DNA of 64,000 nt from Streptomyces sp. NBC_01298 (lineage in GTDB: Bacteria > Actinomycetota > Actinomycetes > Streptomycetales > Streptomycetaceae). Under the pieces are notes generated by a model, which saw only the letters and a program-made list of their open reading frames with translations, was not told the DNA's origin and searched no databases. Position 1 is the first letter of the stretch; the number at the start of each line of letters is the position of its first letter. Location of the stretch: assembly GCF_035978755.1 (NCBI RefSeq), contig NZ_CP108414.1, positions 7,192,001 through 7,256,000 of the forward strand, given 5' to 3'. Below, one piece after another: positions 11,701-57,008 of the stretch. The position numbers and the translations under genes were made by a program.

Positions 11701-11999
11701 GTACTTCGACCGGCCGGACACTTATGTGCCCGGCCCACAAGTGGAGGCTCCGATTCTCCCACCCAGCCGCCCTCACGGGAGGCGGGTCACCGGTCAGGTG
11801 GTATCCATCGTTCCGTACGGACGATGGAAAGCTGCCCGATTTTGCGCCCCGCGGTTCGCACGCGACGGTGCTCCGGTTGTATTGGAGCCCTCGTCTGTGC
11901 CCGGCGGGGCTTTTTGCTTTGTCCCGCCGCGGTCGGTCTGACGGAAAAACGTCAGCGGCTGTCCTCCAGGCAGCCGTGTGGTGCTACCGAGGAGGATCC
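11701..11999 (+). promoter_or_regulatory. infC operon leader RNA with attenuator-like hairpin
   Basis: The 300-base untranslated leader contains a hairpin CCATCG/CGATGG at 11805-11827 (with an inner TCCG/CGGA pairing), then a terminator-like element at 11886-11915: AGCCC pairs with GGGGCT and is followed by TTTTT, a rare T run in this genome. The leader then continues for about 85 bases to the infC ribosome site. Autogenous control by IF3 or L20 through transcription attenuation is the obvious hypothesis, as in other bacteria where L20 or IF3 regulates this operon. No Rfam match was tested. Confidence 0.55.
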
Positions 12000-53254: not shown

Positions 53255-53929
53255 ATGAACCTGCTGCACGGGAAGCTCGGCCCGCAATTCGACGCGCTGC
53301 TGTTCGACAACGACGGCATGCTCGTCTCCTCGATGGAGTCGGTGCACCGCTGCTGGACCCGCTGGGCCCGGGAGTACGGGATCACCGAGGAGGCCTTCGC
53401 CGCGGTGGAGCTCCACGGCCGCCCGGCCGCGGAGATCATCGCCGACCTGCTGCCCGAGGACGTACGGGCCGGGGCGCTGGCCCGCATCGAGGTGCTGGAG
53501 ACCGAGGACGTGGCGGGCGGCGTGGTCCTGCTTCCCGGCACCAAGGAGCTGCTCTCCGCCCTTCCCGCCGGCCGGTGGGCCGTGGTCACCTCCGCCACCC
53601 GGCCGCTGGCCGAGGCCCGGCTGCGGGAGGTGGGCATCGACTTCTCGGAGATGGTGGCCGCCGACGACATCACCCGCGGCAAGCCCGACCCGGAGCCCTT
53701 CCTGCTGGCCGCCGCCCGCCTCGGCGTGGACCCGGCCCGCTGCGCGGTCTTCGAGGACGCCCCCGCGGGCCTGGCCGCGGGCCGCGCCGCCGGGATGACC
53801 ACCGTGGCCTTGACCACAACCCACCCGGCCGCCGGGCTCGACGCGGACGTGGTCGTACGGGACCTCTCGGCCGTGTCCGTGCTGGTCGGAGCCGATGGCG
53901 TGACGATTGAGACGGACGATCGGCCCTGA
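53255..53929 (+). CDS. HAD-family phosphatase (beta-phosphoglucomutase-like)
   Basis: 224 residues. Motif I ALLFDNDGMLVSSMESVHRCW, motif II VVTSATRPLAEARL, motif III KPDPEPFLLAAARLG, motif IV VFEDAPAGLAAGRAAGM. C1 cap of GS1-like/DOG1 enzymes; DNDG is a common Streptomyces variant of DxDGT. Cytoplasmic phosphomonoesterase, natural substrate unknown. Confidence 0.85.
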   Translation: MNLLHGKLGPQFDALLFDNDGMLVSSMESVHRCWTRWAREYGITEEAFAAVELHGRPAAEIIADLLPEDVRAGALARIEVLETEDVAGGVVLLPGTKELLSALPAGRWAVVTSATRPLAEARLREVGIDFSEMVAADDITRGKPDPEPFLLAAARLGVDPARCAVFEDAPAGLAAGRAAGMTTVALTTTHPAAGLDADVVVRDLSAVSVLVGADGVTIETDDRP

Positions 53930-53978
53930 CCGGTGTTGTCCGGTATGCGGCCGAAATTCGTCCGCTATTCGGACACCT

Positions 53979-54009
53979 TTGATCGGTCACGGGGAACGTC
54001 TGGTTTACT
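53979..54009 (+). promoter_or_regulatory. Promoter of metN leader peptide
   Basis: -35 TTGATC (53979-53984), spacer 19, -10 TTTACT (54004-54009). Predicted start about 54016, exactly at the leader ATG, suggesting a leaderless leader peptide. Confidence 0.45.
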
Positions 54010-54015
54010 GGGCCC

Positions 54016-54102
54016 ATGACCACGACGAGCAGCCGCACCCTTGCGACCGAGGCGACGATGACGCCCGGTGCTCGTTGTATGTGTCGAATGCGCGCCTTCT
54101 GA
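54016..54102 (+). CDS. Met/Cys-rich leader peptide upstream of metN
   Basis: 28 codons: begins MTTTSSRTLATEATMTPGAR and ends RCMCRMRAF then TGA. The run CMCRM places two Cys and two Met next to the stop, in front of a GGTCTC...GAGACC hairpin (about 54117-54140) and of the methionine importer genes. This is the form of a ribosome-mediated attenuation peptide sensing charged tRNA-Met/Cys. Coding and function are inferred from position and composition; ATG may be leaderless. Confidence 0.5.
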   Translation: MTTTSSRTLATEATMTPGARCMCRMRAF

Positions 54103-54303
54103 GGGCCCCTGCCCCAGGTCTCACGCCCCGAAGCGAGACCGGCCGAGCAGCTCCCGGCACCCCCGTGTGAACCCGGAACGCTCCTGCCCCGCGCATGCGC
54201 CGAAGCCGTCGATTTCCGATGCTTCGCCCCGTATCGCGTCCCCAGATGTATGCCCCGTGCCCGGCACCCGCTGCGCCGCGCACTCGACAGCGACGGAAAT
54301 CCT
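54103..54303 (+). promoter_or_regulatory. metN leader region after leader peptide
   Basis: Contains GGTCTC-ACGC...GCGAGACC pairing at 54117-54140 and several GC-rich stretches. No SAM-I or SAM-IV riboswitch core was recognised by eye. The metN start follows at 54304. Confidence 0.35.
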
Positions 54304-55377
54304 GTGATCACCACATCGGGCCTCACGAAGGTCTACCAGTCCCGTGGCCGCGAGGTCACCGCCCTGGACGGCGTCGACCTGCACGTCCGCCAGGGCGAGG
54401 TCTACGGAGTCATCGGCCAGAGCGGCGCCGGAAAGTCCTCCCTGATCCGCTGCGTGAACCTGCTGGAGCGCCCCACCACCGGCACGGTGTCCGTGGACGG
54501 CGTCGACCTCACGGCCCTCGCCGGCCGCGGCCGGCGCGCCGGCAAGGAGCTCCGCGAGGCCCGCAGCCGCATCGGCATGGTCTTCCAGCACTTCAACCTG
54601 CTGTCCTCGCGCACCGTCCAGGGCAACATCGAGCTGCCCCTGGAGATCCTCGGGGTCTCCGGCCGCGAGCGCTCCCGCAAGGCCGCCGAACTGCTCGACC
54701 TCGTCGGCCTCGCCGACAAGGCCAAGTCCTACCCCGGTCAGCTCTCCGGCGGCCAGAAGCAGCGCGTCGGCATCGCGCGCGCCCTGGCCGGCGACCCCAA
54801 GGTGCTGCTCTCCGACGAGGCCACCAGCGCCCTGGACCCGGAGACCACCCGCCAGATCCTCCAGCTGCTGCGCGACCTCAACCGCCAGCTGGGCCTGACC
54901 GTCCTGCTCATCACGCACGAGATGGACGTGGTCAAGTCGGTCTGCGACTCGGCCGCCCTCATGCGCCAGGGCAGGATCGTCGAGGCCGGCAAGGTCACCG
55001 AACTGCTGGCCACCCCCGGCTCCGAGCTCGCCCACGAACTGTTCCCGCTGACCGGCTCCGCGACCACCGCGGAGCACACGGTCATCGACGTCACCTTCCA
55101 CGGCGAGACCGCGACCCAGCCGGTCATCTCCCAGCTGGCCCGCACCTACAACATCGACATATCGATCCTCGGCGCCGCGATGGACACCGTCGCCGGCCGT
55201 CAGATCGGCCGCATGCGCATCGAGCTGCCCGGCCGCTACGAGGACAACGTCGTACCCGTGGGCTTCCTGCGCGAGCAGGGCCTCCAGGTGGACGTCGTAG
55301 AGGCGGACGTGGACGGGGACGTAGGCGGGGACGTCGACGGCGAACTGGCCGAGCTGGTCAAGGATGGTGCGAAGTGA
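54304..55377 (+). CDS. metN: Methionine ABC transporter ATP-binding protein
   Basis: 357 residues from GTG 54304 (GGAAA upstream); ATG 54250 gives 18 more residues but no ribosome site. Walker A VIGQSGAGKSSLIRC, Q-loop VFQHFNLLSSRTV, signature YPGQLSGGQKQRVGIARAL, Walker B VLLSDEATSALDP, H-loop LLITHEM; C-terminal NIL/ACT-like domain (about 255-335) for methionine regulation. Energises import with MetI and MetQ. Confidence 0.95.
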   Translation: MITTSGLTKVYQSRGREVTALDGVDLHVRQGEVYGVIGQSGAGKSSLIRCVNLLERPTTGTVSVDGVDLTALAGRGRRAGKELREARSRIGMVFQHFNLLSSRTVQGNIELPLEILGVSGRERSRKAAELLDLVGLADKAKSYPGQLSGGQKQRVGIARALAGDPKVLLSDEATSALDPETTRQILQLLRDLNRQLGLTVLLITHEMDVVKSVCDSAALMRQGRIVEAGKVTELLATPGSELAHELFPLTGSATTAEHTVIDVTFHGETATQPVISQLARTYNIDISILGAAMDTVAGRQIGRMRIELPGRYEDNVVPVGFLREQGLQVDVVEADVDGDVGGDVDGELAELVKDGAK

Positions 55378-56042
55378 CCTGGTCCGAAATGCAGCCGCTG
55401 CTCACGCAGGGCACCTTCGACACCCTCTACATGGTGTTGTGGTCCGCCCTCGTGACCATCCTGGGCGGACTGCCCATCGGCATCCTGCTCGTCCTGACCG
55501 ACAAGGGCGGCCTGCTCCAGAACCGCGCGGTCAACAAGATCCTCGGCGTGATCGTGAACATGGGCCGCTCGCTGCCCTTCATCATCCTGCTGATCTTCCT
55601 GATCCCGGTCACCACGGCGATCGTCGGCACCTTCATCGGCCCCACCGCGATGATCGTCCCGCTCGCCATCGGCGCCATCCCCTTCTTCGCCCGGCTCGTC
55701 GAGACCGCGGTCCGCGAGGTGGACCACGGCCTGGTCGAAGCCGTCGAGTCCATGGGCGGCGGCATCCCGACCCTGGTCGGCAAGGTGCTCCTCCCGCAGG
55801 CGCTGCCCTCGCTGATCGCCGCCGTCACCACCACCGTGATCACCCTGATCGGCTACTCGGCCATGGCCGGCGCGGTCGGCGGCGAGGGCCTCGGCTCCAA
55901 GGCCATCACGTACGGCTTCCAGCGCTTCGAGACCGGCTTCATGATCGCGACCGTCGTGGTGCTGATCGTGCTCGTCACGGTGATCCAGCTCATCGGCGAC
56001 GGCGTGGTACGCCTCCTCGCGCGGCGCGGTCGGACAGCCTGA
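55374..56042 (+). CDS. metI: Methionine ABC transporter permease
   Basis: 222 residues from GTG that overlaps the metN stop (GTGA); the long frame from 54195 is spurious. Five to six membrane helices and the EAA-type coupling loop EVDHGLVEAVESMGGGIPTLVGKVLLPQALPS (in parts). Channel of the MetNIQ importer. Confidence 0.95.
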   Translation: MTWSEMQPLLTQGTFDTLYMVLWSALVTILGGLPIGILLVLTDKGGLLQNRAVNKILGVIVNMGRSLPFIILLIFLIPVTTAIVGTFIGPTAMIVPLAIGAIPFFARLVETAVREVDHGLVEAVESMGGGIPTLVGKVLLPQALPSLIAAVTTTVITLIGYSAMAGAVGGEGLGSKAITYGFQRFETGFMIATVVVLIVLVTVIQLIGDGVVRLLARRGRTA

Positions 56043-56144: not shown

Positions 56145-57008
56145 GTGCGCAAGAACATCAAGCTCACCGCCCTCGCCGCCACCGTCTCGGCGCTCGCCCT
56201 CGGACTCACCGCCTGCGGCAGCTCCTCGGACCCGTCCTCCACCAAGGCCGACGGCGGCAAGACCGACGAGAGCAAGCCCCTGGTCGTAGCGGCGTCCCCG
56301 TCCCCGCACGCCGACATCCTGAAGTTCGTCCAGGACAACCTGGCGGCCAAGGAGGGCCTCAAGCTGGAGGTGAAGGAGTTCACGGACTACGTCCTGCCGA
56401 ACACCGCCACCCAGCAGGGTCAGGTCGACGCCAACTACTTCCAGCACGTGCCGTACCTCGACGACTTCAACAAGAAGAACGGCACCGACATCGTGCCCGT
56501 CGTGAACGTGCACCTGGAGCCCCTGGGCCTGTACTCCAAGAAGGACAAGGCCCTCACCGACATCAAGGCCGGCCAGACCATCGCCGTCCCCAACGACCCC
56601 ACCAACGAGGGCCGCGCGCTCCAGCTGCTCGCCGCGAACAACCTCATCACCCTCAAGGAGGGTGTCGGCACGGCCGCCAAGCTGTCCGACATCACCGACA
56701 AGAAGGGCCTCGAGTTCAAGGAGCTGGAGGCCGCCACGGTCCCGCGCGCCCTGAACGACGTGGACGCCGCCGTCATCAACGGCAACTACGCCATCGAGGC
56801 CAAGCTCGTCCCGGCCAAGGACGCGCTCGTCCTGGAGAAGGCCGAGGGCAACCCGTACGCCAACATCCTGGCGGTCAAGAAGGGCAACGAGAACGACCCG
56901 CGGATCCAGAAGCTCGCCAAGCTCCTGAACTCCCCCGAGGTCAAGAAGTTCATCGACGACAAGTACGAGGGCTCGGTCATCCCGGCCTTCGGCAAGCCCG
57001 TCGCCTGA
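56145..57008 (+). CDS. metQ: Methionine-binding lipoprotein
   Basis: 287 residues from GTG 56145 after AGAAAGG. Lipobox ALGLTACGSSSDP, so membrane-anchored after cysteine. NLPA/MetQ fold: VVAASPSPHADILKFVQDNLAAKEGLKL (in parts), VNANYFQHVPYLDDFNKKNG-like DANYFQHVPYLDDFN, VPNDPTNEGRALQLLA. Binds methionine outside the membrane for MetNI. Confidence 0.95.
   Translation: MRKNIKLTALAATVSALALGLTACGSSSDPSSTKADGGKTDESKPLVVAASPSPHADILKFVQDNLAAKEGLKLEVKEFTDYVLPNTATQQGQVDANYFQHVPYLDDFNKKNGTDIVPVVNVHLEPLGLYSKKDKALTDIKAGQTIAVPNDPTNEGRALQLLAANNLITLKEGVGTAAKLSDITDKKGLEFKELEAATVPRALNDVDAAVINGNYAIEAKLVPAKDALVLEKAEGNPYANILAVKKGNENDPRIQKLAKLLNSPEVKKFIDDKYEGSVIPAFGKPVA

Follow-up and report, generated by a model that had tools for sequence, protein, structure and literature searches.

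In classical trp-type attenuators, the sensor codons are carried by a leader peptide. The methionine-importer leader described here departs from this type in that no intrinsic terminator was found and in that the apparently selected fold occupies the 5′ portion of the ORF. Mycobacterial poly-Cys attenuators (Canestrari et al. 2020), as described in papers citing that work, consist of a leaderless short ORF with Cys codons that attenuates downstream genes. The present leader shares the short, here putatively leaderless, ORF and the Cys codons; it differs in that Met and Cys codons alternate and that a conserved three-way junction is predicted within the ORF. The survey of Seliverstov et al. 2005 (PMC1262725), in its available part, describes actinobacterial cys leader peptides without obvious terminators, for which Rho is proposed, and, ahead of leuA, a structured LEU element. 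A leader peptide lacking an obvious terminator is common to these cys/LEU elements and the present system, whereas no conserved RNA structure is reported in that part of the survey upstream of methionine operons.

The metL leader itself is already published for one species, Streptomyces lividans, as an attenuator whose mode of termination is unclear (Droste et al. 2021, PMC8079986). The available text describes a leaderless start, several downstream hairpins, and no typical terminator, and it names methionines and threonines. The present leader resembles metL of S. lividans TK24 in gene position and peptide family, and the metL peptide is identical to that of two loci of our set (L204 and L209). 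The accessible description of metL mentions neither an RNA junction within the coding sequence nor any involvement of Cys, both of which are proposed here. Neither a folded RNA inside metL nor joint Met/Cys sensing ahead of metN was found in the open-licence full texts searched; our comparison points to both.

Leader ORF, upstream region, and sensor codons

The window (the whole stretch of DNA analyzed, 64,000 nucleotides in length) contains metN, metI, and metQ, which are preceded by a short upstream ORF (uORF), a promoter-like box, and a palindrome:

53959..53975, unstranded: palindrome CGTCCGCTATTCGGACA (GTCC-N7-GGAC), a candidate NdgR site from pattern conservation
54004..54009, + strand: −10 box TTTACT, six bases ahead of the leader ATG
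54016..54102, + strand: putatively leaderless uORF (metL), MTTTSSRTLATEATMTPGARCMCRMRAF, from the sequence and genus comparison; the S. lividans TK24 member is named metL SLIV_29928 in the available part of its publication
54076..54090, + strand: sensor codons TGT ATG TGT CGA ATG (C-M-C-R-M), from conservation among 136 loci
54304..55377, + strand: metN, ABC ATPase with a C-terminal NIL domain (PF00005 and PF09383 over the Pfam cut-offs; TIGR02314 at 381 bits, cut-off 499.7)
55377..56042, + strand: metI, permease (PF00528)
56145..57008, + strand: metQ, NlpA lipoprotein (PF03180, 312.7 bits)

The curated NCBIfam cut-offs for MetN and MetQ are reached by neither of the window proteins, and the term methionine importer is therefore a family-level assignment. 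The genes SCO1557–SCO1559 (metQIN) are reported to be upregulated under oxidative stress in an HbpS-SenS-SenR–dependent manner (PMC4991794, available part). Elsewhere in the window, at 11705-11917, an Rfam match to the Streptomyces sRNA Scr1601 was recorded (152.5 bits).

The leader ORF comprises 28 codons and a TGA stop, from which the GTG start codon of metN at 54304 is 201 nt away. This arrangement, a 28-codon ORF with TTTACT just upstream and metN about 200 bases farther on, had been noted in a preliminary description of the locus, and that observation is confirmed. The comparison across Streptomyces metN loci found the ORF intact in all 138 extracted loci (101 distinct peptides), each with a −10-type box 6 or 7 nt 5′ of the leader ATG (TTTACT in 135, TTTAAT in two, and TTAACT in one), a geometry compatible with a leaderless start. 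A sigma-70 consensus promoter scan of the window leader returned no promoter, the TTTACT box included. Leader DNA was matched in 142 of 150 genomes (149 of the same genus and the window's own). The genus is taken to be Streptomyces, since the named Streptomyces records L039–L049, L053, and L055 contain the same leader. The 138 loci stem from 138 of the matching genomes, with four weak-match genomes and a second place in one genome (G002) left out. In G002, two equally good metN-leader matches (C196:18658-18992 and C185:45743-46077) may represent a duplicate locus or an assembly duplication. As the contig of L224 lacks the metN start, the spacer, duplex, and accessibility counts refer to 137 loci.

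MetN is absent at E ≤ 1e-90 from six of the 12 genomes with no match (eight) or a weak match (four), and present in the other six. All four weak-match genomes with MetN (L296, L297, L298, and L300) contain a diverged Cys-rich uORF, e.g., MTGASSHHQAPETGTLSGARCPRRMCAR. Two loci cannot be judged for a leader: MetN of L299 begins at contig base 6, and the match of L301 starts only at residue 43. Judged by sequence comparison, conservation of the leader is far beyond chance. A homology search was used because a degenerate DNA pattern for RCMCR, found in 175 of 199 genomes, was also matched by its backwards control in most rows among the matches listed.

At least 10 of the 12 positions of the operator pattern TGTCCG-N5-CGGACA are matched in 133 of 138 leaders, as opposed to 3 of 138 in shuffled controls, and the palindrome is centered at −49 to −51 from the leader ATG in 124 of these 133. 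Its half-sites fit the published 15-bp motif of NdgR, reported to regulate genes for leucine, methionine, and cysteine (PMC4340878, available part); three inner positions of the window site deviate. The names metN, SCO1557, SCO1558, and SCO1559 do not occur in the available main text of that NdgR ChIP paper. Seven of the 26 genomes searched carry the operator pattern 47 to 49 nt ahead of a LeuB-like ORF, and the first 60 residues of one such ORF match the 3-isopropylmalate dehydrogenase model with 75.6 bits (full-length cut-off 393). At L302, an operator match lies 31 nt ahead of an ORF named by eye as an AhpC-like peroxiredoxin. An NdgR-like operator at −50 may contribute transcriptional control.

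As in the leaderless leader-peptide class, conserved codons near the stop specify the amino acid that the downstream operon deals with. Of the 136 loci with a PG anchor, Cys occupies the first C-M-C-R-M position in 124 and the third in 125, Met the second in 115 and the fifth in 111, and Arg the fourth in 119. In the preliminary description, stalling at CMCRM upon scarcity of tRNA-Met or tRNA-Cys was proposed, with control by methionine as the inference; the CMCRM codons are conserved, Met and Cys being kept together. The two sensor Cys residues are encoded by TGT in 118 and 121 loci, and the three Cys codons of the window metNIQ are all TGC; the sensor Arg is CGA in 107 loci, a codon absent from the window metNIQ. 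In certain species, the tail unit is repeated (CMCRMCRMCAF, CMCRLMCRMCAF), and each of the 24 leaders from sister genera contains both Cys and Met, one or more of either, among its last ten residues. Kitasatospora-type leaders (11 loci) have a different N terminus and tails like RMCGRRMCRR; herein, the genus is named for L051 and L052 only, and the other nine were collected with a pattern built on those two (9 of 297 genomes).

Met/Cys-rich short ORFs that are unrelated in sequence to the Streptomyces leader occur upstream of metN in the family of genome G429, where MetN was matched in 31 of 61 genomes. Across 30 such loci, the tails contain on average 2.87 Cys and Met residues, compared with 1.05 after shuffling and 0.73 for reverse-strand ORFs (a combined p-value exaggerates independence, as the loci share ancestry); individually, 12 of the 30 reach p ≤ 0.02 against shuffles and 18 do not. 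Since unrelated uORFs in another family are Met/Cys-rich, they support sensing of both amino acids, and of all functional statements, selection for codons of both Met and Cys has the best support. In Actinomadura rubrisoli (L054), a MetN relative with 62% identity is preceded by MTAARSCLAHRSLTQRAGRMCCRRMCDR, which was identified by eye from the sequence. At L285, another short ORF, MHQYLTKRRHVDYGRVTAHSCPR, lies ahead of a MetN-like gene; it resembles the Cys leader peptides of sulfur operons.

The predicted three-way junction

The first 63 nt of the leader ORF are predicted to fold into a three-way junction of the helices P1 (ACGACGAGC/GCUCGUUGU), P2 (CGCA/UGCG), and P3 (ACCG-A-GGCG/CGCC-CGGU), a structure derived from the minimum free energy (MFE) fold of one sequence:

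54022..54030, + strand: P1 5′ strand ACGACGAGC, pairing with 54070-54078
54034..54045, + strand: P2 hairpin CGCA-CCCT-TGCG, from the MFE fold, comparison, and recoding
54046..54069, + strand: P3 hairpin ACCG-A-GGCG/CGCC-CGGT with a bulged A at 54050, from comparison and recoding
54070..54078, + strand: P1 3′ strand GCTCGTTGT, which contains the first sensor Cys codon, from comparison

The coding sequence is constrained as expected of such a fold. At codon positions 1, 2, and 3, the entropy is 0.11, 0.10, and 0.19 for paired and 0.64, 0.81, and 0.38 for unpaired bases (95 distinct sequences, standard spacing in 133 of 138 loci). None of the shifts in a circular-shift test reached the observed value, with only 68 distinct shifts being available. 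Codon 6 mostly encodes Ser, Cys, Asp, Tyr, Asn, or Thr, yet its third base is C in 136 of 138 loci, and the codons GGT, GCT, CGT, TGT, and CGA of the leader run counter to the local codon preference. Synonymous sites are thus frozen amid varying residues, likely because of the three-way junction. When the same peptides are recoded with metNIQ codon usage, the mean pair probability drops from 0.82 to 0.01 for P1, from 0.76 to 0.06 for P2, and from 0.94 to 0.09 for P3, with a mean z of −3.13 over 116 leader sequences. The whole ORF of the window is modestly stable, with z = −1.67 against dinucleotide shuffles (10 of 200 equally good) and z = −1.66 against whole-ORF recoding. Elsewhere, a codon-selected fold is not clear: the mean z is −0.81 for ten ORFs of other families (a set without L271 and L274), and z ranges from −0.98 to −1.24 for three Kitasatospora-type leaders.

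Covariation was determined in alignments A1 (43 of 51 selected sequences), A2 (43 sequences, namely 44 selected, minus L138 and L173, in which an extra codon shifts the register, plus L298), and A3 (21 sequences from Streptomyces and 16 of the 24 from sister genera). The sequences omitted from A3 include the irregular L352, L353, and L356, and its statistics are flattered for that reason. In 43 diverse sequences, 93.6% of the junction cells pair, and changes on both sides affect 7 pairs and 20 cells, compared with shuffle means of 2.7 and 3.8 (0 of 500 shuffles each). In the alignment of 37 sequences, 12 of 500 shuffles reached the observed count of both-side pairs. P3 cells are paired to 98.5% (43 sequences) and 98.6% (37), with three and two pairs, respectively, being changed on both sides. 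Sliding the partner strand by −2 gives 8 (43 sequences) or 7 (37) both-side pairs, which is as many as the structure itself has, together with fewer both-side cells (11 and 10 vs. 20 and 38) and about 40% of cells paired. Further pair types did not exceed shuffles in either alignment (296/500 and 471/500), and RNAalifold alone returned P3 and two to three other pairs without the rest of the junction. Much of the junction covariation seen in these alignments is clade-wide.

At E ≤ 1e-6, the covariance model of the junction (R2) detects it in six sister genera. Of 26 regions fetched, 24 are leaders, and one of the remaining two came from another model; the sole fetched match of model R2 above E 1e-6 (G573, L357) is no leader. 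At E ≤ 0.01, R2 matches 87 of 150 genomes of the family, many weak matches included. Most sister-genus leaders replace Ser5 AGC by Asn AAC together with Ala GCT by Val GTT or GTC, which preserves pair 14-56. This pair is standard in 157 of 160 leaders (133 G-C, 22 A-U, and 2 G-U), a count that includes all 24 sister-genus leaders and excludes two loci without PG; the step from G-C to A-U may represent one ancestral double change. P2 is weak in the sister genera (mean pair probability 0.28). A fold within the leader ORF thereby appears to be supported both comparatively and in silico. It was missed in the preliminary description, as were the evidence for Cys across families and the earlier publication, and the interpretation given there is partly supported.

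Downstream hairpin and spacer

Three further elements lie between the sensor codons and metN:

54082..54093, + strand: strand 1 of a possible long-range helix, UGUCGA-A-UGCGC, a candidate from the MFE fold
54117..54140, + strand: downstream hairpin GGTCTCACGCCCCGAAGCGAGACC with a conserved CCCCGAA loop, from motif conservation and partial covariation
54278..54289, + strand: strand 2 of the possible long-range helix, GCGCA-C-UCGACA, 15 to 26 nt 5′ of the metN start, a candidate from the MFE fold

The arms of the downstream hairpin are GGTCTC (54117-54122) and GAGACC (54135-54140). It had been proposed that ribosome stalling remodels this hairpin and so raises metNIQ. The hairpin does exist: 134 of 138 loci carry its motif no more than 75 nt past the stop, although the window copy deviates by an A-C mismatch from the consensus CTCGC-GCCCCGAA-GCGAG. 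A function as the switch is not borne out: among the 24 sister-genus leaders, nine show no such motif in the first 150 nt past the stop (L337, L340, L343, L347, L349, L354, L355, L360, and L361), and modeled stalling has, on average, no effect on the metN Shine–Dalgarno (SD)/start region. Of the hairpin cells in 43 sequences, 85.9% are paired; 12 both-side cells compare with 3.6 in shuffles (0/500), and three both-side pairs with 2.0 (122/500), the latter being not unusual. Within the class, the hairpin model R1 matched 30 of 296 genomes, of which 28 are of the same genus (the window's own counted). The R1 match in G429 is a metN leader. A weak one in G393 was rejected, as there is no Met/Cys-rich ORF at the match and the 3063 bases of G393 contain no MetN relative. 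An alternative pairing between P1 and the hairpin was likewise discarded since, on inspection, sister-genus P1 covaries with its own partner (AAC/GTT) and the hairpin, in leaders that have one, does not follow.

The spacer contains more C than G in all 137 loci, and no intrinsic terminator with a U run, as a classical attenuator would have, was found in 53900-54400. Conserved blocks, e.g., CCCCGCG(T/C)CAC and ATGCCCCGTGCCCGG, were seen in the spacer (54187-54264) and in L336–L361.

Proposed mechanism and rival explanations

The best explanation, which we consider probable, is a two-layer translation-coupled attenuator of metNIQ. The first layer would be the leaderless uORF ending in Met and Cys codons; given these codons, a ribosome should halt at the uORF end if either charged tRNA is short. 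The second layer would be the three-way junction in the first 63 nt, which is closed by helix P1; this helix extends into the first Cys codon of the sensor run and ends there. An initiating or sensor-halted ribosome would cover strands of P1 and P3 and keep the junction open, which would refold once no ribosome is present. Junction state and ribosome position together would then set how much transcription or translation arrives at metN. The output may be Rho-dependent termination in the C-rich 201-nt spacer or translation control; Rho is tentatively preferred, given that the search for an intrinsic terminator was negative and that the model shows no differential occlusion of the metN start, with the C-richness of the spacer being weak evidence in the same direction.

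A rival reading is translational attenuation, in which the uORF end (UGUCGAAUGYGC) would pair with GCGCACUCGACA just 5′ of the metN start until a stalled ribosome releases the pairing, resembling the mycobacterial leaderless poly-Cys attenuators. This helix is part of the whole-leader MFE fold, at least 8 of its 12 site bases are paired in 106 of 137 duplex predictions with the pre-metN UCGACA, and blocking of the ribosome site raises accessibility of the distal site at −26..−15 by 0.14 on average (137 loci). The same in-silico equilibrium model, which leaves out co-transcriptional folding and pseudoknots, gives a mean change of about zero at the metN SD/start whether there is no ribosome, a stalled one, or one on the stop codon (137 loci); a ribosome at the stop codon acts in the same way as a stalled one. 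In the window's own leader, modeled stalling even lowers the openness of the SD region from 0.59 to 0.44. Both strands are nearly invariant, no compensatory changes were found among the relatives, and L184 and L206 in Streptomyces as well as several sister-genus loci have only one strand altered. As a lock on the ribosome-binding site, long-range pairing finds no support in the accessibility model or in changes among relatives, and this form of attenuation is unlikely overall.

The junction could also be a ligand-binding riboswitch for SAM, methionine, or a thiol that overlaps the uORF, and a conserved structured RNA ahead of a methionine importer, with a single strong match per matching genome, would suit such an element. 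Most aptamers differ from the pattern of varying loops and fixed stems that is seen here, where the J1/2 strand varies along with the loops and two junction strands have zero length. The Rfam search of the leader, suggested earlier as a means of excluding a SAM riboswitch, gave no such match: nothing reached gathering scores, and the sole matches at E ≤ 10 were two on the minus strand, below threshold and to unrelated families. We regard a riboswitch as highly improbable. Only slightly more credible, and still very unlikely, is a fold that mainly tunes 5′-end stability or the rate of leaderless initiation, with the peptide being a constitutive uORF that senses no amino acid. P1 begins at nt 7, which the footprint of an initiating ribosome can reach; Met and Cys codons in the unrelated uORFs of other families would, however, be left unexplained.

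A bolder extension of the two-layer attenuator, which we hold to be unlikely, is a new dual-input class in which the coding sequence of a leaderless uORF is itself the RNA switch. Methionine would herein be read at initiation, where fMet-tRNA on the bare AUG must open P1, and again, together with Cys, at C-M-C-R-M; the refolding junction would decide between termination and importer expression.

SAM depends on the supply of methionine, as does antibiotic production in Streptomyces. RNA structure can fix the synonymous codons of a leader ORF, and peptide conservation in such an ORF is therefore not evidence of peptide function. For the two-layer attenuator, the structured coding RNA and the joint sensing of Met and Cys offer specific helices and codons for testing.
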